Below are positions 6,072 to 40,886 of a stretch of DNA of 64,000 nt, one piece after another. Each line of letters opens with the position of its first letter. Positions within the stretch are counted from its first letter, which is position 1. This DNA is from Comamonas denitrificans (GTDB lineage: Bacteria > Pseudomonadota > Gammaproteobacteria > Burkholderiales > Burkholderiaceae_C), in contig NZ_JAFNME010000018.1 of assembly GCF_017368815.1 (NCBI RefSeq), forward strand, positions 1 through 64,000, written 5' to 3'. The notes beneath the pieces are model-generated. The model ran no database searches and was not told the origin of the DNA. It saw nothing but the letters and a program-made list of their open reading frames with translations. Both the position numbers and the translations under genes were made by a program.

Positions 6072-6087
6072 GGTTTCACGTGGAACG
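6072..6087. other. parS-like ParB-binding site 1
   Basis: GGTTTCACGTGGAACG matches the bacterial parS consensus TGTTNCACGTGNAACA at all positions except the first and last. The TGA stop codon of the methyltransferase gene (6076-6078 read in reverse) lies inside the site. Confidence 0.75.
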
Positions 6088-8700: not shown

Positions 8701-9606
8701 CTATGGGCACTGGCGCAAGCGCTCGATCAGCCCATTGAGCGCCTCCAGCGAGCCAAATGCAATGGCCACCTCCCCGGTGTGCTGCTTGCCCGATTTTTTC
8801 AGGCGCACCTGCACCTGGGCCATGAGCAGGTCGGACAGCTCCTCCTCCACGCGCAGCACATCGCCCGATTTGGCCGCCACACTGCGGGCGCTGGGGCTGC
8901 GGCCGTCGTCCCCGGCAGCAACTTTTTTCACCAGCGCTTCGGTCTCGCGCACCGACAGCTTGCGCGCCGCCACTTGGTTGGCGGTGGTGATTTGCTCGGC
9001 CTTGTCCAAACTTAGCAGCGCCCGGGCATGGCCCATGTCAATGTCCCCGGCGATGAGCATGGTTTGCACCGGCTCGGCCAGGTGCAGCAGGCGCAGCAAA
9101 TTGCTGGCCGCCGAGCGGCTGCGCCCCACTGCGGCCGCCGCCTGCTCGTGCGTGTGGCCAAACTCGTGTACCAGGCGCTGCAGGCCCTGGGCCTCTTCCA
9201 GCGGGTTGAGGTCTTCGCGCTGAATGTTTTCAATCAAGGCCATGGCGGCGGCGGCCTCGTCGGGCACATCGCGCACCAGCACGGGCACGTCGGTCAATCC
9301 CGCCAAGGTGGCAGCGCGAAAACGGCGTTCCCCGGCAATGATTTCGTACTGCCCAGCCTGCGGCCCCGCGGCCAGCTTGCGCACCAAAATGGGCTGCATG
9401 ATGCCCTGGGCGCGAATGCTTTCGGCCAGCTCGTACAACGCGCCCTCGTCCATGCGCGTGCGCGGCTGGTATTGGCCGGGCACCAGGGCGGTGAGGGGCA
9501 GCGTGGAAGGGGCATCGGAGGCCGCGGCCGGGCTGGCCTCACTCACTTTGGGGCCTAACAAGGCTTCCAGCCCCCGGCCCAAACCTTTGGGTTTAGCGCT
9601 TGCCAT
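8701..9606 (-). CDS. parB: Chromosome-partitioning protein ParB
   Basis: ParB binds parS sites near the origin, spreads as a CTP-dependent clamp and works with ParA to segregate origins. The 301 residues show the N-terminal ParA-interaction motif (KGLGRGLEALLG), the ParB/Srx fold with GERRFRAA, the ENIQREDLNPLEEA box, a helix-turn-helix (HEQAAAAVGRSRSAASNLLRLL) and a C-terminal dimerisation domain. The start ATG at 9604-9606 overlaps the upstream hydrolase stop by 14 bases, so translation is likely coupled. Four good parS-like sites lie within 6 kb, two of them inside rsmG and mnmG of the same operon. Confidence 0.97.
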   Translation of the reverse strand: MASAKPKGLGRGLEALLGPKVSEASPAAASDAPSTLPLTALVPGQYQPRTRMDEGALYELAESIRAQGIMQPILVRKLAAGPQAGQYEIIAGERRFRAATLAGLTDVPVLVRDVPDEAAAAMALIENIQREDLNPLEEAQGLQRLVHEFGHTHEQAAAAVGRSRSAASNLLRLLHLAEPVQTMLIAGDIDMGHARALLSLDKAEQITTANQVAARKLSVRETEALVKKVAAGDDGRSPSARSVAAKSGDVLRVEEELSDLLMAQVQVRLKKSGKQHTGEVAIAFGSLEALNGLIERLRQCP

Positions 9607-10159: not shown

Positions 10160-10237
10160 AGCTGTTACCGCTGAAATTTAAACGATTAAAAGATAAAAAC
10201 ACTAAAAATAACTGAAGAATCAAGCGCAAACTGCTAT
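10158..10237. repeat. AT-rich palindromic repeat, family 2
   Basis: The left arm ATAGCTGTTACCGCT and the right arm AAGCGCAAACTGCTAT enclose an A/T-rich centre. The element exactly fills the gap between the parA stop and the hydrolase start. Related copies are at 25996, 36107, 56566 and 62138. Confidence 0.7.
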
Positions 10238-11007
10238 TACATTTTTTTAATGCGCTGCACCATTTCCTGGGCAAACTCAATAAACGCTTTGCTGCCCTTG
10301 GCCGAAGGGTCAAACACCACACCGGGCAAACCGTAGCTGGGCGCTTCGGCCAGGCGCACATTGCGCGGAATCACGCTGTTGAACACCTTGTCGCCAAAAT
10401 GCTCTTTGAGCTGATCGCTCACCTGCTGCTGCAGCGTGGTGCGCGGGTCAAACATCACGCGCAGCAGGCCAATGATTTGCAAGTCCGGGTTCATATTGGC
10501 ATGCACCTGCTTGATGGTGTTCACCAAATCGGTCAGCCCCTCCAGCGCAAAATATTCGCACTGCATGGGCACGATCACGCCATGCGCCGCGCACAGCCCG
10601 TTCAGCGTCAGCATGGACAGGCTGGGCGGGCAGTCAATCAGCACAAAATCAAAATCACGATCGGCCTGCGCCAAAGCCGCTTTCAGGCGCTCGGTGCGCC
10701 GCTCCAGGGTGACCAGCTCAATCTCGGCACCGCTCAGTTCCCGGTTGGCCCCCAGCACAGAAAACCCGCATTGTTCAGAGCGCACCGCCGCCTCGGCCAC
10801 GCTGGCCGATTCGAGCAACACGTCGTACACGCTCAGGGCCAAAGTCCGCTTGTCCACGCCGGCACCCATGGTGGCGTTGCCCTGCGGATCCAAATCAACC
10901 AACAAAACCCGCTGGCCAATTTTGGCCAAGCCTGCGGCCAAATTCACCGCCGTGGTGGTTTTACCGACTCCGCCCTTTTGGTTGGCAATACAAAAAACCT
11001 TGGCCAT
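10237..11007 (-). CDS. parA: Chromosome-partitioning ATPase ParA
   Basis: A 256-residue Walker-type ATPase that binds DNA non-specifically and moves ParB-parS complexes. Visible are the deviant Walker A motif KGGVGKTTTAVNLA at residues 10-23, Walker A' LLVDLDPQGNAT, and Walker B FVLIDCPPSLSMLT. The length is that of chromosomal Soj/ParA rather than the longer plasmid type. It lies 61 bases after rsmG in the mnmG-rsmG-parA-hydrolase-parB unit. Confidence 0.97.
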   Translation of the reverse strand: MAKVFCIANQKGGVGKTTTAVNLAAGLAKIGQRVLLVDLDPQGNATMGAGVDKRTLALSVYDVLLESASVAEAAVRSEQCGFSVLGANRELSGAEIELVTLERRTERLKAALAQADRDFDFVLIDCPPSLSMLTLNGLCAAHGVIVPMQCEYFALEGLTDLVNTIKQVHANMNPDLQIIGLLRVMFDPRTTLQQQVSDQLKEHFGDKVFNSVIPRNVRLAEAPSYGLPGVVFDPSAKGSKAFIEFAQEMVQRIKKM

Positions 11008-11068: not shown

Positions 11069-11743
11069 TTACGCCGCCCGCACGGGGCGCAACCAAACAA
11101 TGCAACGCTGTGCATCCAAGCCGGGCACGGTCAAAGGTTCCACGTGAAACACCTGGGCAATCTGGGCATCAAGGGCCGCGATTTCATCGTCGGGCTGTTT
11201 GCCCTTCATCGCCAGCCACACCCCATCGGCCGCAATGGCCGAGCGCGACCAGGCAGTAAAGTCGGCCAGCGCAGCAAAGGCCCGGCTGCTCACCACCGCA
11301 TAGGGGCCGGTCAGCGACTCCACCCGGGCATGAATGCCCGTCAAATTGGGCAAATGCAAACTGGCCGCCGCCTGCTGGATAAAGGCCGCTTTTTTGGCCA
11401 CGGTATCCACGCAATGCACCGTCAGCTGCGGGCAGCAAATGGCAAACACCACGCCGGGCAAACCACCACCGCAGCCCACATCCAACAGCCGCGCAGCCCC
11501 AGGCTGGGTGGCCAAATGGCGCTGCAAGGCGGGCACCGCCGCCAAACTATCGAGCAAATGGTGGGTGAGCATTTCCTGCGGGTTGCGCACTGCTGTCAGG
11601 TTGTACACCTTGTTCCACTTTTGCAGCAGGTCTAAAAAATCCAACAAGCTTTGCTGCTGGGCGCTGCTCAAGTCCAAGCCCAAAGCCTGCACACCGGCCT
11701 GCAAAGTGGCCGCCAAATCATGATGCGACGCGGCGGGCTTCAT
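11069..11743 (-). CDS. rsmG: 16S rRNA (guanine-527-N7)-methyltransferase
   Basis: RsmG (GidB) methylates G527 of 16S rRNA; loss in other bacteria gives low-level streptomycin resistance. The 224 residues include the conserved start [33 protein letters not shown], the SAM motif [17 protein letters not shown] and VSSRAFAAL. Its ATG overlaps the mnmG stop by 4 bases (ATGA), indicating translational coupling. A parS-like site (11136-11151) lies inside the coding sequence near the 3' end. Confidence 0.96.
11136..11151. other. parS-like ParB-binding site 2 (inside rsmG)
   Basis: GGTTCCACGTGAAACA matches TGTTNCACGTGNAACA at 15 of 16 positions. Confidence 0.85.
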
Positions 11744-13698
11744 GCCTGCACCTGCGCCACGGCAAAGCCTTTAAAGCCGCCTTTTTTCAGGTGAATCATC
11801 AGCAGCGACACCGCCGCCGGGGTCACCCCAGAAATGCGCGAGGCCTGGCCCAGGGTTTCAGGGCGGTGCTTTTGCAGCGTTTGCCGCACCTCAATCGACA
11901 GCGCAGCCACTTGCATGTAATCCAAATCGGCCGGCAGCTTCAGACTCTCGTAATGCGCCGCCCGCTGCACCTCTTCTTTTTGGCGGTCGATGTAGCCGGA
12001 ATACTTGGCGGCAATCTCCACCTGCTCCACCACTGCCGCCTGCAAATCGCCCAAGGTTTCACGTGAAACATCGGCACTGGCGTATTTGCCATCGTCCATG
12101 CCCAGCAGGCTGGTGTAATCCACGCCGGGGCGGCGCAGCAGATCAAACAGGTTGTATTCGTGGTCAATGCCCTTGCCCAGCACCCGCTCGGCTTCACTCT
12201 GCGGCAGGATGCGCGGGTTCACCCACGTGGCTTTGAGCCGCTCGGTTTCACGCGCCACCGCATCGCGCTTGCGGTTGAACAAATCCCACTGGGCATCGGC
12301 CACCACGCCCAGGCTGCGCCCCACTTCGGTCAGGCGCATATCGGCGTTGTCTTCGCGCAGCTGCAAGCGGAACTCGGCCCGGCTGGTAAACATGCGGTAA
12401 GGCTCGGTCACGCCTTTGGTAATCAGGTCGTCAATCAGCACGCCCAAATACGCCTCATCGCGGCGCGGCAGCCAGGGGCCCTGGCCACGCACTTGCAGGC
12501 CGGCATTAATCCCGGCAAACATGCCCTGGGCCGCAGCCTCTTCGTAGCCGGTGGTGCCATTGATTTGCCCAGCAAAAAACAGGCCTTGAATTTGGCGTGT
12601 TTCAAAACTGCTTTTCAGCTCGCGCGGATCGAAGTAGTCGTACTCAATCGCATAGCCAGGGCGCAGGATGTGGGCGTTCTCCAGCCCTTTGATCGAACGC
12701 ACCAGCGCGTACTGAATATCAAAGGGCAAGCTGGTCGAAATGCCGTTGGGGTAATACTCGTTGGTCGTCAGCCCTTCGGGCTCCAAGAAAATCTGGTGGC
12801 TGTCTTTGTCGGCAAAACGGTTGATTTTGTCTTCCACGCTGGGGCAATAGCGCGGCCCCACGCCTTCGATCTTGCCGGTGAACATGGGGCTGCGGTCAAA
12901 GCCGCTGCGAATGATGTCGTGCGTCTGCTGGTTGGTGTGCGTCACCCAGCACGGCATTTGCTGCGGGTGCATGCTGGCATGGCCCCGGTAGCTGAACACT
13001 GGCAGCACCCCCTCATTCACGCCGCCGGGCATGCCATCGCCGGGCTGCTCGGAGCACTGGCTAAAGTCAATGCTGCGGCCATCAATGCGCGGCGGCGTGC
13101 CCGTTTTCAAGCGGCCCTGGGGCAACTTCAATTCTTTCAAGCGTGCGGACAAGCCCATGGAAGGGGGGTCGCCCGCGCGGCCGCCTTCGTGGTTGCGCAG
13201 GCCAACGTGGATTTTTCCGTCCAAAAACGTCCCCACGGTCAGCACCACCGCACGGGCACGAAACTGAATGCCAATTTGCGTCACCGCACCCACCACGCGA
13301 TCGCCCTCGACCAGCAAATCATCCACCGCCTGCTGAAACAGCCACAGGTTGGGCTGGTTCTCCAGCATCTCGCGGATGGCTGCTTTGTACAAAATCCGGT
13401 CGGCCTGGGCACGGGTGGCCCGCACGGCCGGGCCTTTGGAGCTGTTCAAAATACGAAATTGAATGCCCGCTTTATCAGTCGCCAGGGCCATGGCACCGCC
13501 CATGGCATCGACCTCTTTGACCAAATGGCCTTTGCCAATCCCCCCAATCGAAGGGTTGCAACTCATTTGCCCGAGGGTTTCAATATTGTGGGTAAGCAGC
13601 AGGGTTTTACAGCCCATGCGAGCGGCGGCCAGGGCGGCCTCGGTGCCAGCGTGGCCACCACCGACCACGATGACATCAAATTCTTGGGGGTACAGCAT
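11740..13698 (-). CDS. mnmG: tRNA uridine-5-carboxymethylaminomethyl modification enzyme, FAD subunit
   Basis: MnmG (GidA) with MnmE modifies the wobble uridine of certain tRNAs. The 652 residues begin with the FAD-binding [22 protein letters not shown] and contain the family motifs [24 protein letters not shown]-like (here with MGGAMA), [11 protein letters not shown] and [19 protein letters not shown] 13696-13698 has GGAG 9 bases upstream and matches the conserved N-terminus; the frame is open for 54 more codons but that stretch is unrelated to the family. First gene of the parAB operon. A near-perfect parS-like site lies in its 3' part. Confidence 0.97.
12055..12070. other. parS-like ParB-binding site 3 (inside mnmG)
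   Basis: GGTTTCACGTGAAACA matches 15 of 16 consensus positions, with a perfect 12-bp palindromic core TTTCACGTGAAA. Confidence 0.88.
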
Positions 13699-13914
13699 GA
13701 TTAAAAACTCCAAACCAAGGCCGCGTTGTACGGCACAGCCCTGTTGCGCCAGGGATAAAAAATAGAAAAAGGGAGGTGCGTTAAAACACTGTTGGCGCAA
13801 GAAAAACCAGCGATTTTCCCATTCTTTCGCACTTTTTGCAGATAGTGACAATGCGGCCAAGGCCTTGAAAAAGTTCTACGATGCCACGCTTATCAACCAC
13901 CTTTGCCCTGCACC

Positions 13915-14539: not shown

Positions 14540-14573
14540 ATAAAAAAAGGTTCCACGTGGAACCTTTTTTTAT
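14540..14573. terminator. Perfect 34-bp palindromic terminator after GST
   Basis: A fully self-complementary sequence: an A-rich arm, GGTTCCACGTGGAACC in the middle, a T-rich arm. It can terminate both the GST gene (+) and the chemoreceptor gene (-), and its centre is a parS-like site. Confidence 0.88.
14549..14564. other. parS-like ParB-binding site 4 (centre of terminator)
   Basis: GGTTCCACGTGGAACC matches the consensus except for the outermost base on each side. It is a perfect 16-bp palindrome. Confidence 0.8.
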
Positions 14574-16587: not shown

Positions 16588-16996
16588 ACCGTGGACCTGG
16601 CCGGTTCCCATTGGCACAGCGGCAACGCGGGCAGGGGTATCGGCACGGATGGTGCGCCATTACGAGGCGCTGGGGCTGCTCCCCGAAGTGGCCCGCACCG
16701 ACAGCGGCTACCGCCAGTACACCACCAACGATGTGCACACCCTGCGCTTTATCCGCCGCTGCCGCGATTTGGGCTTTTCTATAGAAGAAATCCGCCAGCT
16801 CTTGGCCCTGTGGCGCGACAAACTGCGGGCCAGTGCCCAGGTCAAGCACATTGCCCAGGCACACATCCACCAACTCAACGAACGCATCGCCGCCATGCAA
16901 GCCATGCAACGCAGCCTGCAAACGCTAGTGTCCTGCTGCAAAGGCGACGAACGCCCGGACTGCCCCATCCTGGACGATTTGGGCTCACCGCTTTAA
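16574..16996 (+). CDS. cueR: Cu(I)-responsive MerR-family regulator CueR
   Basis: A 140-residue regulator. The winged helix reads [26 protein letters not shown], followed by [35 protein letters not shown] and a dimerisation helix. The metal loop [13 protein letters not shown] has the two Cys with the spacing that binds Cu(I) in CueR. Start ATG 16574 is inside copZ and has GAAGAAGG upstream. CueR is likely to act on the dyad at 16322-16347, giving autoregulation. The stop overlaps, tail to tail, the end of the hsdR remnant. Confidence 0.92.
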
Positions 16997-17465
16997 AGCG
17001 CCCCGCCCACCCCTTTAAATTTCTCCACAAACGCGGCGATCTTCTGAAACACGGTTTGCTTTTTGCTCAGGTACTGCGGGTTCAGCGGGCTCATTTTGGG
17101 CAGCACCGCATTCAGCTCGGTGCCGTTGTCGCTGGCAAATTCGCGTTTAAGAGAGGTGCTGATGTAGCGCTTGGCCGCAGCGGCATTGAGCTGTTCCTCA
17201 TCAATCAAGGCTTGGGCTTCGCGCTGTAGCTCGGCCTGGGCAAACGTAAAAAACGCTTCAATCACGCTGGCTTTATCGCCAATGGGGTCTAAGTTGGTCT
17301 GCTGGATAAAGTCCACCACCAACCCTTCTTTGGCGCGGTTGCCAATGCTGGCGCGGATTGCGCGGCGCACTGCTTGAAGTCCCAGCCGTCCACGGCCCCC
17401 CGGACATCGTTGGCGATTTGCCAAATGCGGCGTTGCAGTTCTGCGCGTTGTTGTGTGCTGGTCAT
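16993..17465 (-). pseudogene. Type I restriction-modification remnant: start of hsdM fused to end of hsdR
   Basis: Reading from 17465 on the minus strand, 32 codons encode the conserved start of HsdM ([23 protein letters not shown] to WDFKQ). At about 17370 the sequence switches, out of frame, to the C-terminal ~125 residues of HsdR ([18 protein letters not shown] to the stop). Everything between (most of hsdM, hsdS, most of hsdR) is missing. This looks like one large deletion of an hsdMSR operon. The first frame runs past the join only as nonsense, so no functional product is expected. Confidence 0.85.
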
Positions 17466-17804
17466 GTATCTTTCTCGAAGTGTTGGCGGTGCGTGCCCCC
17501 TGCTGGGAGCCGATGCCACGATGGCAGCGATGGTAGTGGGGCGCAGGAGCCAAAACAGCAAGGCACCGATGGATGCCTTAATTTTTTATAAGACAAATTG
17601 GCACTTAGCGATTGCTGGATAAGCGCAAGCAGCTATTGTTTTTAAGTTCTTTATTTGCTTTTGTGTGTCAGTCTCTCCAAGGCTGCAGTGATGGCACCAC
17701 AGAATTACGGACGCAAGGTCACTGCAGCGCAAGGCCCAGCCTATTGGCTCTGGAATGGGCAGCTGCTATCAAAAATCAACAACGTAACCACCTGAGAGGA
17801 TGGC
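17466..17804. other. Gene-free stretch between hsd remnant and nuclease gene
   Basis: 339 bases without a supported gene. It contains the former hsdM upstream region, one right arm of repeat family 2 (AAGCGCAAGCAGCTATTG near 17625), and the leader of the nuclease gene ending in GAGAGGA. Confidence 0.6.
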
Positions 17805-18599
17805 ATGGTGCATGAACTGACATGGAAAGAGGCAATCAATCAAGTGCTGGCACAGTTTCCGAACGGCCTTCACTACAACGAAATTGCCGAAAAGATCATC
17901 GACCAGGGCCTGCGCACCTCCGTCGGTGCCACCCCTGCCGCAACGGTCAATGCGCAGATTTCTGCCTCCATCAAGCACGAAGGAGATGCATCGCCGTACG
18001 TCCGCACGAACAAGGGCGTTTTTGCGCTCAAGTCCGGACTGTCACCAACTGAGAGTGCTCACCTCGCAGCACAGTCTCCTTTGATGGTGGAACAGGATGA
18101 AGCGCAGTCACAAATCATCACCGCGTTCGGCATGTATTGGCGGCGGGATGCTGTGGCCTGGAAAAACAACCCAAAACTGTGGGGTTTCAATAAGGAGTTC
18201 GCCGACAAAGTCGATTTTGGTGGGCAGCGGGGTATTTACCTGCTCCATGATGGGCGGGATGTGATTTACGTAGGCCGCTCGACAGATGACTCGATTGGCC
18301 AGCGCCTGCTCCAGCACACAAAAAACAGGCTGTCATTTCGGTGGGATCGGTTTTCTTGGTTCGGCCTAAATCCGGTGGAGGAAGACGGAACGCTAGGTCA
18401 GATGCCCGCCAACTATTCAGCCAACAACATGATTGCAACACTGGAAGCCATTCTGATTGAAGCCATGGAGCCCGGATTGAATCGTCAGCGGGGGCAGGAC
18501 CTTGAGGCCTTCGAATATTTTCAACACGAAGATCCGCAGCTGAAGACCGCAAAGTTAATGACGGATGTCGCCAGTGTCTTGGCCAAGAATCACCTGTGA
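17805..18599 (+). CDS. HARE-HTH plus GIY-YIG domain nuclease
   Basis: 264 residues, two domains. Residues 5-76 (TWKEAINQVLAQFPNGLHYNEIAEKII to GVFALK) form a HARE-HTH winged helix, a DNA-reading module found in restriction enzymes, RpoE delta and ASXL proteins. Residues ~140-230 form a GIY-YIG nuclease: GIY 143-145, YVG 155-157, Arg167, a Glu at 214 or 219, and Asn226 in PGLNRQRG, so the catalytic set looks complete. It is probably a DNA-cleaving protein of restriction or homing type. Codon use is less GC-biased than neighbours, and it stands beside a restriction-system scar, suggesting an acquired defence locus. No partner methyltransferase is present. Confidence 0.8.
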   Translation: MVHELTWKEAINQVLAQFPNGLHYNEIAEKIIDQGLRTSVGATPAATVNAQISASIKHEGDASPYVRTNKGVFALKSGLSPTESAHLAAQSPLMVEQDEAQSQIITAFGMYWRRDAVAWKNNPKLWGFNKEFADKVDFGGQRGIYLLHDGRDVIYVGRSTDDSIGQRLLQHTKNRLSFRWDRFSWFGLNPVEEDGTLGQMPANYSANNMIATLEAILIEAMEPGLNRQRGQDLEAFEYFQHEDPQLKTAKLMTDVASVLAKNHL

Positions 18600-19737: not shown

Positions 19738-19870
19738 CCTAAGCGCCGCAAAGCCACACCAAAACCTTACATGCGCCCGACACACTAGCGGCCATGCACT
19801 GCCCGAAAGCTGAAATTGTTTTTTCTGGCAGCTTTTATTCTCTCTTGTCCCTGCTTTGAAAGGATGGATC

Positions 19871-20368
19871 ATGAACCGCACGTCTGTACTGCGCCTGGCC
19901 GCTATGGTCAGTTTTTCTGGCCTGCTGGCTACCACGGCCATAGCCCAAGCCAGCCCCGCTGCTGCACCTGCAGCCCAAGTCCAAACCCAAGCGCCGCATG
20001 AGCGCTTGGCCCAGCATCAGGCTGAGCGCCACGCACGGCACCAAGAAAAGCAGCAGCAGCACTGGGAGCGCCAGAAAAATCTTTTGCAGCTGCAACCCCA
20101 GCAACAAGCCCAGTGGGAGGCTTATGTGGCCGCCATGCAACCGCCACCCCGCGTGGCCCCGGCCAAACATCCGAAAGACATGAACACCTTAGAGCGCTTG
20201 GACTGGAAGGCCCAAATGCGCACCAGCCACCAAAAACACGCCGAACGACGTGACCAGGCGACGCGCAGCTTTTACGCCAGCTTGAATGCGCAGCAGCAAA
20301 AAGCCTTTGACAGCTTGCCCCACGCAGGGCGCAGCCAGATGGGCAAGCGCCGGGGTGACTGGCGCTAA
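19871..20368 (+). CDS. Small periplasmic LTXXQ/Spy-like protein
   Basis: 165 residues. A signal peptide (MNRTSVLRLAAMVSFSGLLATTAIAQA) is followed by a His/Gln/Arg-rich helical region. LQLQPQQQAQWEAYVAAM and FYASLNAQQQKAFDSL resemble the paired LTxxQ motifs of Spy/CpxP periplasmic chaperones. It is therefore probably an envelope-stress or metal-related helical protein; the match is by pattern only. The ATG 19871 has AAAGGA upstream. A strong terminator follows, and beyond it lies the origin-like region. Confidence 0.65.
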   Translation: MNRTSVLRLAAMVSFSGLLATTAIAQASPAAAPAAQVQTQAPHERLAQHQAERHARHQEKQQQHWERQKNLLQLQPQQQAQWEAYVAAMQPPPRVAPAKHPKDMNTLERLDWKAQMRTSHQKHAERRDQATRSFYASLNAQQQKAFDSLPHAGRSQMGKRRGDWR

Positions 20369-20390
20369 CGCGGCAGCGAATGTCATTTTT

Positions 20391-20417
20391 AACAGGCCTT
20401 CGGGCCTGTTTTTTTAT
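20391..20417 (+). terminator. Terminator after the Spy-like gene
   Basis: Stem AACAGGCC/GGCCTGTT with a TTCG tetraloop and a run of T. Confidence 0.93.
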
Positions 20418-20595
20418 GCCTTTTTTTTAAAAATCTGTGTGGATAAGCCTGTGGTGTGTTGGCGATCAACTACCGCTTTGTCCACAGAGAAAAAATTTTT
20501 TAGCCATCTACCCACATTCCGGGTACCGCCGCCAGCCGTGCTGACCCCAGGCTTTGACCAAGCTTAAGCCCTTGAAATTTAAAAAATAGTGAGGG

Positions 20596-20632
20596 TTATG
20601 CACAAAAACAGCGGGGCTTACTATTACTACTA
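20596..20632 (+). other. oriC unwinding module 1: DnaA box plus DnaA-trio-like repeats
   Basis: TTATGCACA, a 13-base GC-containing spacer, then TTACTATTACTACTA, followed by an A/T tract to about 20657. Confidence 0.65.
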
Positions 20633-20963
20633 TCTATCAATATTAAATATAAAGAATAGTGGCGGCAGCCAACCCCCCAGCCGTGCTGGCCTTGTTTTGC
20701 TCACGCAAGACAGCAAACGGCCAGTTGGTGTGCAGCAATGGCTATCCACAGCCTGAAAATTGCAATAAAACTATTTATTTTCAATAACTTGCTTTGATTT
20801 TTTGACTGCGCGGGCCTGTGCATCGTTGAGCGAACAACCTTGGGTTATCCACAAATTTTTCACGATCTTGAATCTTGTTCAGCCCTTGTTCCTGCGCAAA
20901 CAGGGCCCAGGCCCCCATGGTTGGCGGCGCGCTAATGCAATGAAAAAAATAAAAAAAACAGGC

Positions 20964-20999
20964 TTATCCACAAAAAGACAAGCCTTACTACTACTACCT
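20964..20999 (+). other. oriC unwinding module 2: DnaA box plus DnaA-trio-like repeats
   Basis: TTATCCACA, a 12-base spacer, then TTACTACTACTACCT, followed by a tract to about 21030 that is nearly all A and T. Same orientation and layout as module 1, 368 bases away. Confidence 0.68.
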
Positions 21000-21175
21000 A
21001 CTAAATATTTAAAATAAATAAAATAAAACTAGCAAAACGCTGAACAGAAAAAAATTCAAAACAACGCTGTGCTGTGGAAATACTTTGAATAATTTGTGTA
21101 AATAACGAAAAGAAAAATATTTTTCAGCCAAAACGCTTACAAAAACAACGTTTCCTGCTATCTATTTTAAAAAAA

Positions 21176-23353
21176 TTAATTGTGCGCAAGCTGTGCAAAA
21201 CGCTGCTGAAACGAAAAATCAGGCAAGCTTTTTTGAATTTGCTGGCCATAACTGGTGACACACAGCCGCCGGTCATAGCAATACACCTGGGCCTGGTCGT
21301 GCTCGGTGCGAATGGCCCGCCCAACCCATTGCGCCAAGCGGATGGCGGTGGCCGGAACAACCAAATCGGTAAACGGATTGCGCCCGCTGCTGCGCAACCA
21401 TTCGGCCCGGGCCTCTCCCACGGGGTCGTCTGGGGGCGCAAAGGGCAGTTTGGTGATGAACAGGCTGGCGCACAACGCGCCGGGCAGGTCCAGCCCTTCG
21501 CCAAACGATTGCATGCCAAAAATGATCGAGGCTTGCCCGGCTTCAACCTGCTCGCGGTGCTTGTTGAGCAGCGCAAACCGCGGCATGGTGTTTTGCACCA
21601 GGACTTTGGAGCGCAGGGCACTGGGCAAGGCATCCACAGCCTGGCGCATTTGCTCTTTCGATGTGAATAACACCAAGGCCCCGGTCTGCACGCTGGCCAA
21701 GTCGTGCAGCAAGGTGTGCACCATCTCTTGGGTAAAGGGCCCGGCGTGTTTGGGGTCGGCCTGGGTGTGGTGGGCCCACAGCACGCCTTGGCTGGGGTAG
21801 TCAAAGGGGCTGGCCACCTCCAAGGTGGCCAGTGTGGGCAGGTCGTGCAGCCCCACTTCGCGCAGAAAAAAATCAAAACTGCCGCAACTGGTCAGCGTGG
21901 CCGAGGTCAGCACCCCGCCGCGTACCTGGCTCCACAAATGCTGGCGCAGCGTGCTGCCGGGCAGGATCGGGCTGGCGTGGGCTTGCAGAGCGATCCATTC
22001 GCCATCCATTTCCAGGGTGAACCATTTGGCGGCAGGGGCTTGGCCGGGGGCGGGGGTGTGCAGCAGCAGCTCGGTGGTGGCAAAAACCGCTTCCAGGCGT
22101 GGGGCCAGGCTGCCCAACTGCGCGTACAGGGCGGCCAAGCGCGGGGCTTCGTCCGGGGTTTCTTTGATGGTGCTGCGCAGGGCCTTGGCAATGGCGCGCA
22201 AAACGTCCAGCAAGCCCGTGCTGTGCGCCAAGACGGCCTCCAGCGGCGGCAGGAGCGCTTCGGGCAGCACGCCCCGGGGGATGCGGGCACTGGCCGGGCC
22301 AAAGCGCGCCTCGGGGCTTTTCAGGGTTTCGCCGTACTGCGCCATGGCGGCCTGGGCCAGCTGCCCCATGGCTTGGCGCAAGCCGCTGCTGTGCTGCGGG
22401 ATGTCGGCAATTTCTTCTACTTCCAGCAGCTGGCCAATGCGCAAGGCCCGGCTGGTGAGCTTGTCCAGCCACTGCAGGCGGGATAAATCCATATTGCTGG
22501 CAAATTGCGCCAGGGCGGTGGCGGGCAGGTGGTGGGCCTCGTCCAGCACCAGCAGGCAGTTGTCCAGCTCGGGCAGCAGGCGTGCGCCCAGGGAGGACAG
22601 CAGCAGGTCGTGATTGACGACGATGACCTGGGCGGCGACCAATTCCTTGCGCCGCTCGTAGTAGCTGCAGCTTTGGAACGCCGGGCAATGCCGCCCGGTG
22701 CAGGAGCTGCCTTCGGCGGCCACGGGGCTCCAGGCTTCGGGGGCGGGGGGCGTGTCCAGGCTGTCGCGGTCGCCGTCCCAGCGGCCTTGGGCCAGGGCCT
22801 CGGCCATGCTGGCGTAGAACTGTTGCTGGGCTTGGCGTTCAGCCTGGGCCACCGGCTTGGCGGGCAAGGTTTCGCCAAATAAATCATCGGCTTCTTCGGG
22901 GTACAAATCGCTGGAGCCGACCAGGCGCTCGAGTTTGAGCTGGCACACAAAGCGCCCTCGCCCTTTGGCCAGGGCATAGCGAAACGGCTGGCCCAAATGT
23001 GCGGCCAGGGCGGGCAAGTCTTTGTTTACCAGCTGCTCTTGCAGGGCCACGGTGGCGGTGGAGATCATCACCCGCGTGCCCCGCTGCAGGGCCATGGCAA
23101 TGGCCGGGGCGCTGTAAGCCAGGGATTTGCCCACGCCGGTGCCCGCTTGGATGACGGCGATAGAGGGGGCCACCGCAGTGTTGGGGGGGCTGTCTTCGCC
23201 CTCGGTGGGTTTGCCCAAGTGGGCGTGGGCAAAGGTGTGGGCCACTTGGGCGGCCATCTCCCGCTGGCCAGCGCGGGGCCGCAAATGGGCTTGGGCGGCG
23301 ACCACGTTGTCAAAGGCCTGGAGGGCGTGTGTGGCCCATGCGGAAGTGCTCAT
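21176..23353 (-). CDS. dinG: ATP-dependent DNA helicase DinG
   Basis: A 725-residue superfamily 2 helicase of the XPD/DinG type, which unwinds 5'-to-3' and helps forks pass R-loops. Walker A is AGTGVGKS, the DEAH box is LVLDEAHHLP, and motif VI is QWVGRAIRTEHD. Four Cys for a 4Fe-4S cluster are visible: one in GRFVCQLKL and three in SCTGRHCPAFQSC. ATG 23351-23353 is chosen; the base run just upstream on the mRNA reads ACCTCCCC, which is anti-Shine-Dalgarno rather than a ribosome-binding site. The gene lies between two AT-rich gaps, the left one the likely origin. Confidence 0.93.
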   Translation of the reverse strand: MSTSAWATHALQAFDNVVAAQAHLRPRAGQREMAAQVAHTFAHAHLGKPTEGEDSPPNTAVAPSIAVIQAGTGVGKSLAYSAPAIAMALQRGTRVMISTATVALQEQLVNKDLPALAAHLGQPFRYALAKGRGRFVCQLKLERLVGSSDLYPEEADDLFGETLPAKPVAQAERQAQQQFYASMAEALAQGRWDGDRDSLDTPPAPEAWSPVAAEGSSCTGRHCPAFQSCSYYERRKELVAAQVIVVNHDLLLSSLGARLLPELDNCLLVLDEAHHLPATALAQFASNMDLSRLQWLDKLTSRALRIGQLLEVEEIADIPQHSSGLRQAMGQLAQAAMAQYGETLKSPEARFGPASARIPRGVLPEALLPPLEAVLAHSTGLLDVLRAIAKALRSTIKETPDEAPRLAALYAQLGSLAPRLEAVFATTELLLHTPAPGQAPAAKWFTLEMDGEWIALQAHASPILPGSTLRQHLWSQVRGGVLTSATLTSCGSFDFFLREVGLHDLPTLATLEVASPFDYPSQGVLWAHHTQADPKHAGPFTQEMVHTLLHDLASVQTGALVLFTSKEQMRQAVDALPSALRSKVLVQNTMPRFALLNKHREQVEAGQASIIFGMQSFGEGLDLPGALCASLFITKLPFAPPDDPVGEARAEWLRSSGRNPFTDLVVPATAIRLAQWVGRAIRTEHDQAQVYCYDRRLCVTSYGQQIQKSLPDFSFQQRFAQLAHN

Positions 23354-23821
23354 AAGGGGAGGTAAAAACAAAAAATTCGACCCTGTGGGCCGATTTATAA
23401 ATATTGAAACAGAAATTGTCGTAGCAAATTTTATGGTGTTTTATTTATGCAGTATTTTTGGCACCCAAAACCCATATCAGTGCGGTGTGGAGCGATGTGC
23501 AAAATGCTGTGGATGTTTTGGCCAACAGCTTTTTTTAAAACATGAAAAAACCTTATCAACACGCTGTGCAGAACTGAAAATTGTTTTTCAAAACGCCGTC
23601 TGGCAAGCAAGCCACACAGCATGAAAAACAGCCTACATTTAATAATAAAAAATACAAAATAAAGAGTTTGAAAATAAGTCTTGCTGTATTTTGTATTTTT
23701 AAATACTGATCAAGCCATCCAGCCACGCCCGCTTGGCGGCATCGCTACACTAGGCCCCCTCTTCCTGGCCCTTTGGTGCGGGGGAATTTGTCGTTGATGG
23801 ATGCGAAAGGCGCTTGTTGTT
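23354..23821. other. Second AT-rich gene-free gap
   Basis: 468 bases between divergent dinG and uppP. A/T-rich, with imperfect DnaA-box-like words: TTATCAACA near 23552, TGTGCAAAA near 23496 and TGTGGATGT near 23509. It has no trinucleotide module. It may hold both promoters and possibly accessory origin sequence; no gene is supported. Confidence 0.5.
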
Positions 23822-39692: not shown

Positions 39693-40886
39693 TTAGCCTG
39701 CAGCGCGTTTCTGCAAAACTTCAAACGCGGGCAGGGTTTTGCCTTCCAGCACTTCCAAGAAGGCACCGCCGCCGGTGGAGATGTAGCCCACCTTGTCTTC
39801 GATGCCGTATTTGGCAATGGCAGCCAAGGTGTCGCCACCACCGGCGATGCTGAAGGCTTTTGACTCGGCAATCGCCTGGGCGATGGCTTTTGTGCCACCG
39901 GCAAACTGGTCGAACTCGAACACGCCCACCGGGCCGTTCCAGACGATGGTGCCGGCCGCCTTGAGCTGCGCGGCCAGTTTGGCGGCGGTTTCGGGGCCAA
40001 TATCCAAAATCAGGTCGTCGTCGGCCACTTCGGTGGCTTTTTTCACGGTGGCCACGGCATCGGCGGCAAAGGTTTTGGCGGTCACCACGTCGGTGGGAAT
40101 CGGCACCTCGGCACCGCGCGCGGCCATGGCGGCGATGACGGCTTTGGCCTCGCCGACCAAATCGGGTTCTGCCAAAGATTTGCCGATGTTCAGGCCCGCC
40201 GCCAGCATGAAGGTGTTGGCAATGCCGCCACCCACAATCAGTTGATCGACGTTTTTGGCCAGACTTTGCAGGATGGTCAGTTTGGTCGATACCTTGGAAC
40301 CGGCCACGATGGCTGCCAGCGGGCGTGCCGGGTTGGCCAGGGCGGTTTGAATGGCGTCGATCTCGGCCGACAGCAGCGGGCCGGCGCAGGCGATGGGGGC
40401 GAACTGGGCGATGCCGTAGGTCGTGCCCTCGGCGCGGTGGGCGGTGCCAAAGGCATCGTGCACAAAGATGTCGCACAGCGCGGCCAGCTTTTTCGCCAGC
40501 GCCTCGTTGTTCTTTTTCTCGCCCACGTTCACGCGGCAGTTTTCCAGCAGCACCACTTGGCCAGGTTGCACTTGCACACCATCCACCCAGTTGGCCACCA
40601 AGGGCACTTCACGGCCCAGCAGCTCGGACAGGCGCTTGGCTACGGGGGCCAGCGAGTCTTCGGCTTTGAACTCGCCTTCGGTGGGGCGGCCCAGGTGGCT
40701 GGTGACCATGACGGCAGCGCCTGCTTTCAGCGCCATTTCAATGGCGGGCACCGAGGCACGCACGCGCGTGTCTTCGGTGATCTGGCCGGCATCGTTCAGG
40801 GGCACGTTCAGGTCGGCACGGATAAATACACGCTTGCCTTGGGCTTGGCCCTGGGCGCAGAGGTCGGAAAAACGCAGGATGTGCAT
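39693..40886 (-). CDS. pgk: Phosphoglycerate kinase
   Basis: 397 residues, the usual length. It transfers phosphate between 1,3-bisphosphoglycerate and ADP. Visible: [82 protein letters not shown], and the C-terminal nucleotide loop [10 protein letters not shown] followed by STGGGAFLE. In related genomes pgk commonly stands with pyk and fba; here it is inverted and separated from them by pntAB, a chemoreceptor and two lipoproteins. Confidence 0.97.

Follow-up and report, generated by a model that had tools for sequence, protein, structure and literature searches.

A probable chromosomal replication origin of Comamonas denitrificans, located away from dnaA and built from two tandem initiation units

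We describe here a gene-free, AT-rich block of the Comamonas denitrificans genome, near mnmG-rsmG-parAB and not at dnaA, which is very probably the chromosomal replication origin of this bacterium and which carries two tandem initiation units on the same strand. The two units are copies of a module of ~170 bp in which a DnaA box, an IHF-like site, a second DnaA box, a short spacer and a run of DnaA-trios succeed one another in this order. The case is built on the location of the block, a turn of the GC skew, a cluster of DnaA boxes, both units, and the conservation and spacing of their parts, all as read from the nucleotide sequence.

The stretch of DNA analysed (hereafter the window) comprises the first 64 kb of a 68.2-kb contig (C10) belonging to a 3.0-Mb draft assembly of 74 contigs. 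The block, which lies between an LTXXQ-domain gene and a helicase gene (Table 1), had been picked out in an earlier sequence-only reading as gene-free and AT-rich, and it is both: its GC content is 41%, compared to 61% for the window, and falls to 0.25 and 0.29 in the 100-bp bins 21001-21100 and 21101-21200, behind unit 2. Judging from this AT-richness, the end of the block is likely to be the main unwinding element. The distance of 6.7 kb to mnmG-rsmG-parAB given in the same reading is essentially right, since mnmG ends ~6.6 kb from the block, and so is the absence of dnaA from the window. Its placement of the block within the parS cluster was inexact: the four parS-like sites are all on the left, the block being ~5.9 kb to their right. 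The switch from mostly minus-strand genes on the left to mostly plus-strand genes on the right holds on the larger scale but breaks down nearby, where the nearest gene to the right, that of the helicase, is read from the minus strand and two genes to the left (17805-18599 and 19865-20368) from the plus strand. The interval separating mnmG from the block also contains, at 16993-18599, a short EcoR124_C-domain frame of 186 aa, which corresponds to the C-terminus only of a type I restriction R-subunit, and a HARE-HTH gene; both are possibly restriction-system remnants.

Table 1. Features of the predicted origin and of its surroundings (positions in the window)
Feature	Position	Strand	Remarks
parS-like site	6073..6086	+	
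parB	8701..9606	-	Pfam ParB_N, HTH_ParB, ParB_C
parA	10237..11007	-	Pfam AAA_31
rsmG (gidB)	11069..11743	-	Pfam GidB
parS-like site	11137..11150	+	
mnmG (gidA)	11740..13860	-	Pfam GIDA, SAM_GIDA_C
parS-like site	12056..12069	+	
parS-like site	14550..14563	+	
LTXXQ-domain gene	19865..20368	+	left flank of block
Probable oriC block	20369..21175	.	gene-free, AT-rich (41% GC), beside GC-skew minimum
Inverted exact DnaA box	20438..20446	-	158 bp before unit-1 core box
Origin unit 1 (upstream)	20477..20637	+	unit-model match 62.8 bits, E 1.2e-18
DnaA box TTGTCCACA	20478..20486	+	118 bp before unit-1 core box
IHF-like site (YAANNNNTTGATW, 1 mismatch)	20565..20577	+	-31 of unit 1
Unit-1 core DnaA box TTATGCACA	20596..20604	+	
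Unit-1 DnaA-trios	20618..20632	+	five repeats after 13-nt spacer
DnaA box CTATCCACA	20742..20750	+	between units
Origin unit 2 (downstream)	20842..21004	+	unit-model match 54.4 bits, E 4.9e-16
Exact DnaA box	20845..20853	+	119 bp before unit-2 core box
Eroded IHF-like site (2 mismatches)	20933..20945	+	-31 of unit 2
Unit-2 core DnaA box TTATCCACA	20964..20972	+	
Unit-2 DnaA-trios	20985..20996	+	four repeats after 12-nt spacer
AT-rich stretch after unit 2	20997..21175	.	GC 0.25 / 0.29 bins; likely main unwinding element
Helicase gene (DinG/XPD-like)	21176..23371	-	right flank of block; Pfam Helicase_C_2, DEAD, DEAD_2

The DnaA boxes reported in the sequence-only reading are all present: three exact TTATCCACA boxes (20438, inverted; 20845; 20964), one TTATGCACA box (20596), and two further boxes with one mismatch, TTGTCCACA and CTATCCACA. 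That reading had recognised the cluster but had missed the DnaA-trios and the tandem double-unit layout. In both units a site resembling YAANNNNTTGATW, which we take to be the IHF consensus on the + strand of the window, lies ahead of the core box. The boxes at 20596 and 20964 are followed, at distances of 13 and 12 bases, by runs of TTA/CTA triplets; seen from the opposite strand, the triplets correspond to the TAG/TAA-type DnaA-trios of B. subtilis, whose sequence is quoted in PMC10316083. The BUS rule, as worded in the accessible part of PMC8287927, calls for a DnaA box with three or more trios no farther than 16 bp from it, with a spacer peak at 10-13 bp, and two modules fitting this published definition were found in the block, with spacers of 13 nt and 12 nt. 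The units of the window are more eroded than most: besides these spacers, the outer boxes of unit 1 are at -158 and -118 instead of -159 and -119, and no recognisable inverted box is present at -147 of unit 2. The A+T content of the 50 bp behind the trios is 0.80 for unit 2 versus 0.56 for unit 1.

The cumulative GC skew of the window reaches its minimum at 21421, and the skew computed by 2-kb steps passes from negative to positive at ~20-22 kb. The dnaA gene is on another contig, C12, at 41 kb (the shortest route via contig ends is ~61 kb), and over the first 80 kb of C12 the skew does not switch clearly, its 5-kb values fluctuating about zero. Because the contigs of the draft cannot be ordered, we resorted to relatives to compare the skew with the position of dnaA. 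Both dnaA and mnmG were located in 18 of them (16 single-contig assemblies, one of two contigs and one of three), and for nine single-contig members of the genus the cumulative skew was computed over spans of 60-260 kb that hold dnaA and the block, the minima thus being those of the spans and not of whole chromosomes. The minimum lies at most 0.5 kb from a module in eight of the nine (G043, G047, G052, G007, G035, G050, G028 and G020) and 9.5 kb off the module in G018, with dnaA being 17.7-186 kb away in the nine genomes. For G018, we sampled 20 stretches of 20 kb: positive values predominate between 0.8 and 2.9 Mb and negative ones from 3.1 Mb onwards, around to 0.4 Mb, with values near zero for three samples, two of which have the other sign. 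In the main, this fits an origin near 0.5 Mb. In G056, which belongs to another genus, the skew over the first 80 kb reaches its minimum at 39,888, beside a unit match at 40,075 (one of three), and dnaA is at 352. The observation singled out beforehand as speaking against an origin here, a skew minimum elsewhere such as at dnaA, was looked for in the window, in the first 80 kb of C12 and in the spans of the nine relatives, and no such minimum was found at dnaA. The proposal of a probable chromosomal origin away from dnaA is supported by these results.

Conservation was examined in the 53 genomes of the genus. The flanking helicase gene served as a handle for locating the homologous locus, which was collected from 51 of them (G027 and G033, in which it was not located, were left out). 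Since whole-block DNA similarity matched 13 of the 53 genomes, the window's own included, and relatives by short pieces only, we used patterns and then a unit model. A strict box-plus-trio pattern (TTATNCACA, 6-20 bases, YTAYTAYTA) was found in 41 of the 53 genomes and is lacking in 12; it occurs in the window's genome at the two unit sites only, and its backward control gave no match in the 53 genomes. By a relaxed scan, the 51 loci contain exactly two modules in 38 cases, one in 12 and none in one (G017), as against no module in reversed-sequence controls. The geometry of the modules is conserved. The two members of a pair are on the same strand in 38/38 cases and 367-439 bp apart, most often 428-429; 78 of the 88 modules have a 14-nt spacer, the others having one of 15 nt (six), 12 nt (three) or 13 nt (one); a box lies at exactly -119 in 35/38 first and 33/38 second modules; and an inverted box lies at exactly -159 in 35/38 first modules and at -147 in 33 second modules. 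The IHF-like site at -31 is exact in 26/38 first modules and has one mismatch in 11/38, the corresponding figures for second modules being 5/38 and 14/38, relative to a background of 0.09% of all positions matching with at most one mismatch. In the 38 two-module origins, the DNA following the trios is about equally rich in A+T for both units (means of 0.67 for unit 1 and 0.66 for unit 2). On average, the paired units share 45% identity from -110 to -5, so any duplication that produced them must be old.

The unit model, a sequence-only model, was built with 55 units from 32 loci (22 from the genus and 10 from the family), the window's units being excluded. In the 51 genus loci, where matches to the 22 loci that supplied training units follow from the way the model was built, it recovers two full units in 42, one full unit plus a trio-less one in seven, a single unit in one (G025) and none in one (G017), with three weak fragments besides. 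The seven trio-less units are all unit 1 (G014, G016, G018, G020, G022, G029 and G040); they have kept the core box, most of them with an IHF-like stretch before it, which implies that one full unit suffices in these genomes. Four genomes with a single module by the relaxed rule (G023, G030, G035 and G043) do possess a partner whose box or trio run departs from the norm; in G030, the interrupted trio run is that of unit 2. The locus of G017 (L258) has an in-frame TGA in the flanking helicase gene and no unit next to the helicase; chosen by means of the helicase, this locus probably does not represent the origin. Two origin modules and a helicase of the Comamonas type (69% identity) also occur in record L218 (NZ_CACSJA010000021.1), a genome whose name, Pantoea sp. 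18069, is probably wrong.

At E <= 0.01, the unit model matched 147 of 150 sampled family genomes, in 123 of 126 genera, with two or more matches in 49 genomes, one in 98 and none in three; 10 of the 150 genomes had supplied training sequences, and the strict filters used may lose weak matches. Weak single matches (E 0.001-0.005) were obtained in G081, G084 and G157. With the same strict filters, the two units of the window are the only ones in its whole assembly. Among the matches listed, the adjacent pairs of 37 genomes with at least two matches are on the same strand in 32 cases, on opposite strands in four and on different contigs in four, and the 36 same-contig pairs among them are separated by less than 700 bp in 13 cases, by 0.7-12 kb in 20 and by more in three, one of which (G167) spans the contig start. 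As a background control, we scanned 25 loci totalling ~172 kb, including 116 kb of the window's genome (around dnaA, on C6 and on C26): only G108 and G069 match at E <= 0.01. These two are likewise the only ones with a unit among 18 dnaA neighbourhoods of 2.3-3.5 kb (11 from the genus and seven from other genera). Elsewhere, a unit lies between the confirmed dnaA and dnaN genes of G132, and G202 (L338, 3204-3675) has two units directly after dnaA, which diverge, unlike the mostly same-strand pairs. That some genera have the unit at dnaA while in other genera it is distant from this gene is suggestive of a relocation of the origin or of dnaA.

The strict box-plus-trio pattern was found in 20 of the 150 family genomes, and comparison with the 147 recognised by the unit model indicates that it underestimates the spread of the unit; among 12 family loci chosen for matching this pattern, six have at least two modules. 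Order-wide, two boxes ~119 bp apart were found in 15 of 299 genomes, of which 12 do not belong to the family; we take this as a hint. Four genomes from another family of the order, f44 (G398, G421, G442 and G463), each have two box pairs with the boxes 116-119 bp apart; in two of the four, the box pairs are on opposite strands, 3.5 and 5.7 kb apart. They are possible distant relatives of the unit.

Can the block be explained otherwise? An AT-rich block does raise the frequency of DnaA boxes a little, but in 5,000 first-order Markov simulations of the block neither three or more exact boxes nor six boxes with at most one mismatch were reached even once (the simulated mean for the latter class was 0.158), and the box spacings are fixed across the genus, so that we give practically no credence to a chance or compositional effect. 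The whole window has 14 boxes with at most one mismatch, compared to a shuffle mean of 5.6, and none of 100 shuffles reached this number. Box clusters do exist outside origins, and the genome contains other small ones. One of them, on contig C26 (20609-20857, L013), has three boxes in 250 bp without trio runs, together with one weak partial unit-model match on the contig (E 0.051), and is a possible regulatory locus or plasmid origin; another, on contig C6 (3982-5488, L014), has three boxes in 1.5 kb, again without trio runs, and the surrounding skew is positive (0.17 to 0.06 per 2.5 kb). Both were rejected as origins on account of the absence of trio runs from the stretches examined, as was dnaA, where there is no clear skew switch in the first 80 kb of C12 and, on the stretch holding the gene, no trio module and no unit match at E <= 0.01. 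These clusters, and the single exact box near dnaA (C12:42098), would be compatible with the block binding DnaA for regulation or titration, as a promoter or a datA- or DARS-like locus, with the true origin at dnaA. Such an assignment is very improbable given that the skew turns at the block in the window and in eight of nine relatives, that the stretches examined on C26, on C6 and at dnaA are devoid of trio runs and of unit matches at E <= 0.01, and that mnmG, parAB and parS-like sites are near the block.

Taking the block as the origin, we infer how it might function by analogy with B. subtilis and E. coli. In B. subtilis, a box-guided DnaA filament forms on the trios, and in E. coli, where an IHF site is found among the DnaA boxes of oriC (PMC13220808), IHF bending helps DnaA to engage the opened strand (both mechanisms as presented in the accessible text of PMC6669920). 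In the Comamonas block, DnaA would bind the outer boxes (the inverted one and the one at -119) and the core box, and a bend introduced at -31 by IHF or a similar protein would bring outer and core boxes together. DnaA would then be handed from the core box, over the fixed short spacer (13 and 12 nt in the window, usually 14 in relatives), to the trios on one of the strands; the resulting filament would stretch this strand, causing the AT-rich DNA on its right to open and to admit the replicative helicase. With both units pointing in the same direction within ~370-440 bp of each other, the outcome would probably be one enlarged bubble or two neighbouring ones. As to a division of labour, unit 2, behind which the DNA is richest in A+T in the window, may be the main opening site and unit 1 a booster or a backup.

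Whether both units open DNA in cells is a finer question, and we put the chances that they do at slightly below even. The maintenance of the tandem pair over most of the genus argues that both are used, and the seven genomes devoid of unit-1 trios argue that unit 2 can suffice. The same seven genomes, in which the unit-1 core box persists, are also what would be expected if unit 2 alone opened the DNA and unit 1 were a DnaA-binding enhancer or a decaying relic with irrelevant trios, as is the more AT-rich DNA downstream of unit 2 in the window. This scheme for the origin is plausible enough to be kept in mind, even though we rather doubt it: the trios, spacer and IHF-like site of unit 1 are kept in most of the genus, the IHF-like site even better than that of unit 2 (exact in 26/38 versus 5/38), and in G030 the interruption affects the trio run of unit 2. 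Moreover, because the 38 origins show no excess of A+T behind the unit-2 trios relative to unit 1, the assignment of unit 2 as the main site draws on the window and on the seven losses.

An oriC is a known kind of element, found here in a known kind of place; it is the twin-unit layout that looks new. E. coli oriC is near mnmG, and origins of the E. coli type have many GATC sites for SeqA/Dam control. The block resembles E. coli oriC in being away from dnaA and near mnmG, with DnaA boxes and a candidate IHF site beside the putative unwinding element, but differs from it by the presence of two GATC sites only, where an E. coli-type origin has many, by its strong trio runs and two units, and by mnmG being 6.6 kb off instead of adjacent. 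With BUS origins (the B. subtilis incC type, as covered by the accessible text of PMC6669920 and PMC8287927), it shares a box, a short spacer, trios in the same orientation and AT-rich DNA behind them; it differs by having two complete tandem modules, each with an IHF-like site (-31) and an outer box (-119; -118 in the window's unit 1), and by not being at dnaA. The program of the BUS survey ends with a single candidate in >99% of genomes (PMC8287927, accessible text), hence module pairs could have been missed there. In the bipartite oriC of B. subtilis and H. pylori, one origin is likewise served by two DnaA-box clusters, but the lobes are split by dnaA and the unwinding element is in one lobe only (as described in the available portions of PMC6669920, PMC10316083 and PMC13220808); the block has no gene between its units, and trio runs in both.

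The earlier remark that an origin at a non-dnaA site would be notable must be toned down, as there is a precedent in the same order. The position away from dnaA stands, but it is not new for the order: on chromosome 1 of Cupriavidus metallidurans CH34, the skew switch and dnaA are separated by ~90 kb, and a stretch of 213 nt next to the switch harbours three perfect boxes (PMC2864759, whose accessible text contains no trio or unit analysis). Double origins with DnaA boxes have been predicted per chromosome by Ori-Finder, for instance in Ralstonia pickettii 12D, where they are 291 kb apart with one at dnaA; the available part of PMC4403523 describes no shared unit for them. Ori-Finder 2022 labels all possible trios, according to what is accessible of PMC10225481, and the unit pair may therefore already stand in someone's plot. 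Within the accessible open-licence PMC literature (including PMC8287927, PMC6323995, PMC2864759, PMC4403523, PMC10225481, PMC6669920, PMC13220808, PMC10316083 and PMC4948915; supplementary tables and most subscription papers fall outside this scope), we encountered no bacterial origin reported to contain two complete unwinding units.

Altogether, a vague origin prediction has become a defined parts list. On a broader scale, we propose, while granting it not quite an even chance, that chromosome replication in the Comamonas family begins at a portable unit of ~170 bp, situated either between dnaA and dnaN or tens to hundreds of kb away near mnmG, and that Comamonas, Delftia and perhaps a third of the family have two or more units that both open DNA, two same-strand sites cooperating. 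Origins in this order are not all well mapped: the exact origin position of Burkholderia cenocepacia chromosome 1, for example, is called uncertain by its authors in the accessible text of PMC4948915. The unit model, with its matches in 147 of 150 family genomes, provides a direct way of placing origins in that family. Finally, a conserved pair of unwinding modules gives access to the questions of how two helicases come to be loaded at a single origin and of whether a second opening site is of benefit; the seven genomes of the genus that have naturally lost the trios of unit 1 provide a ready-made comparison.
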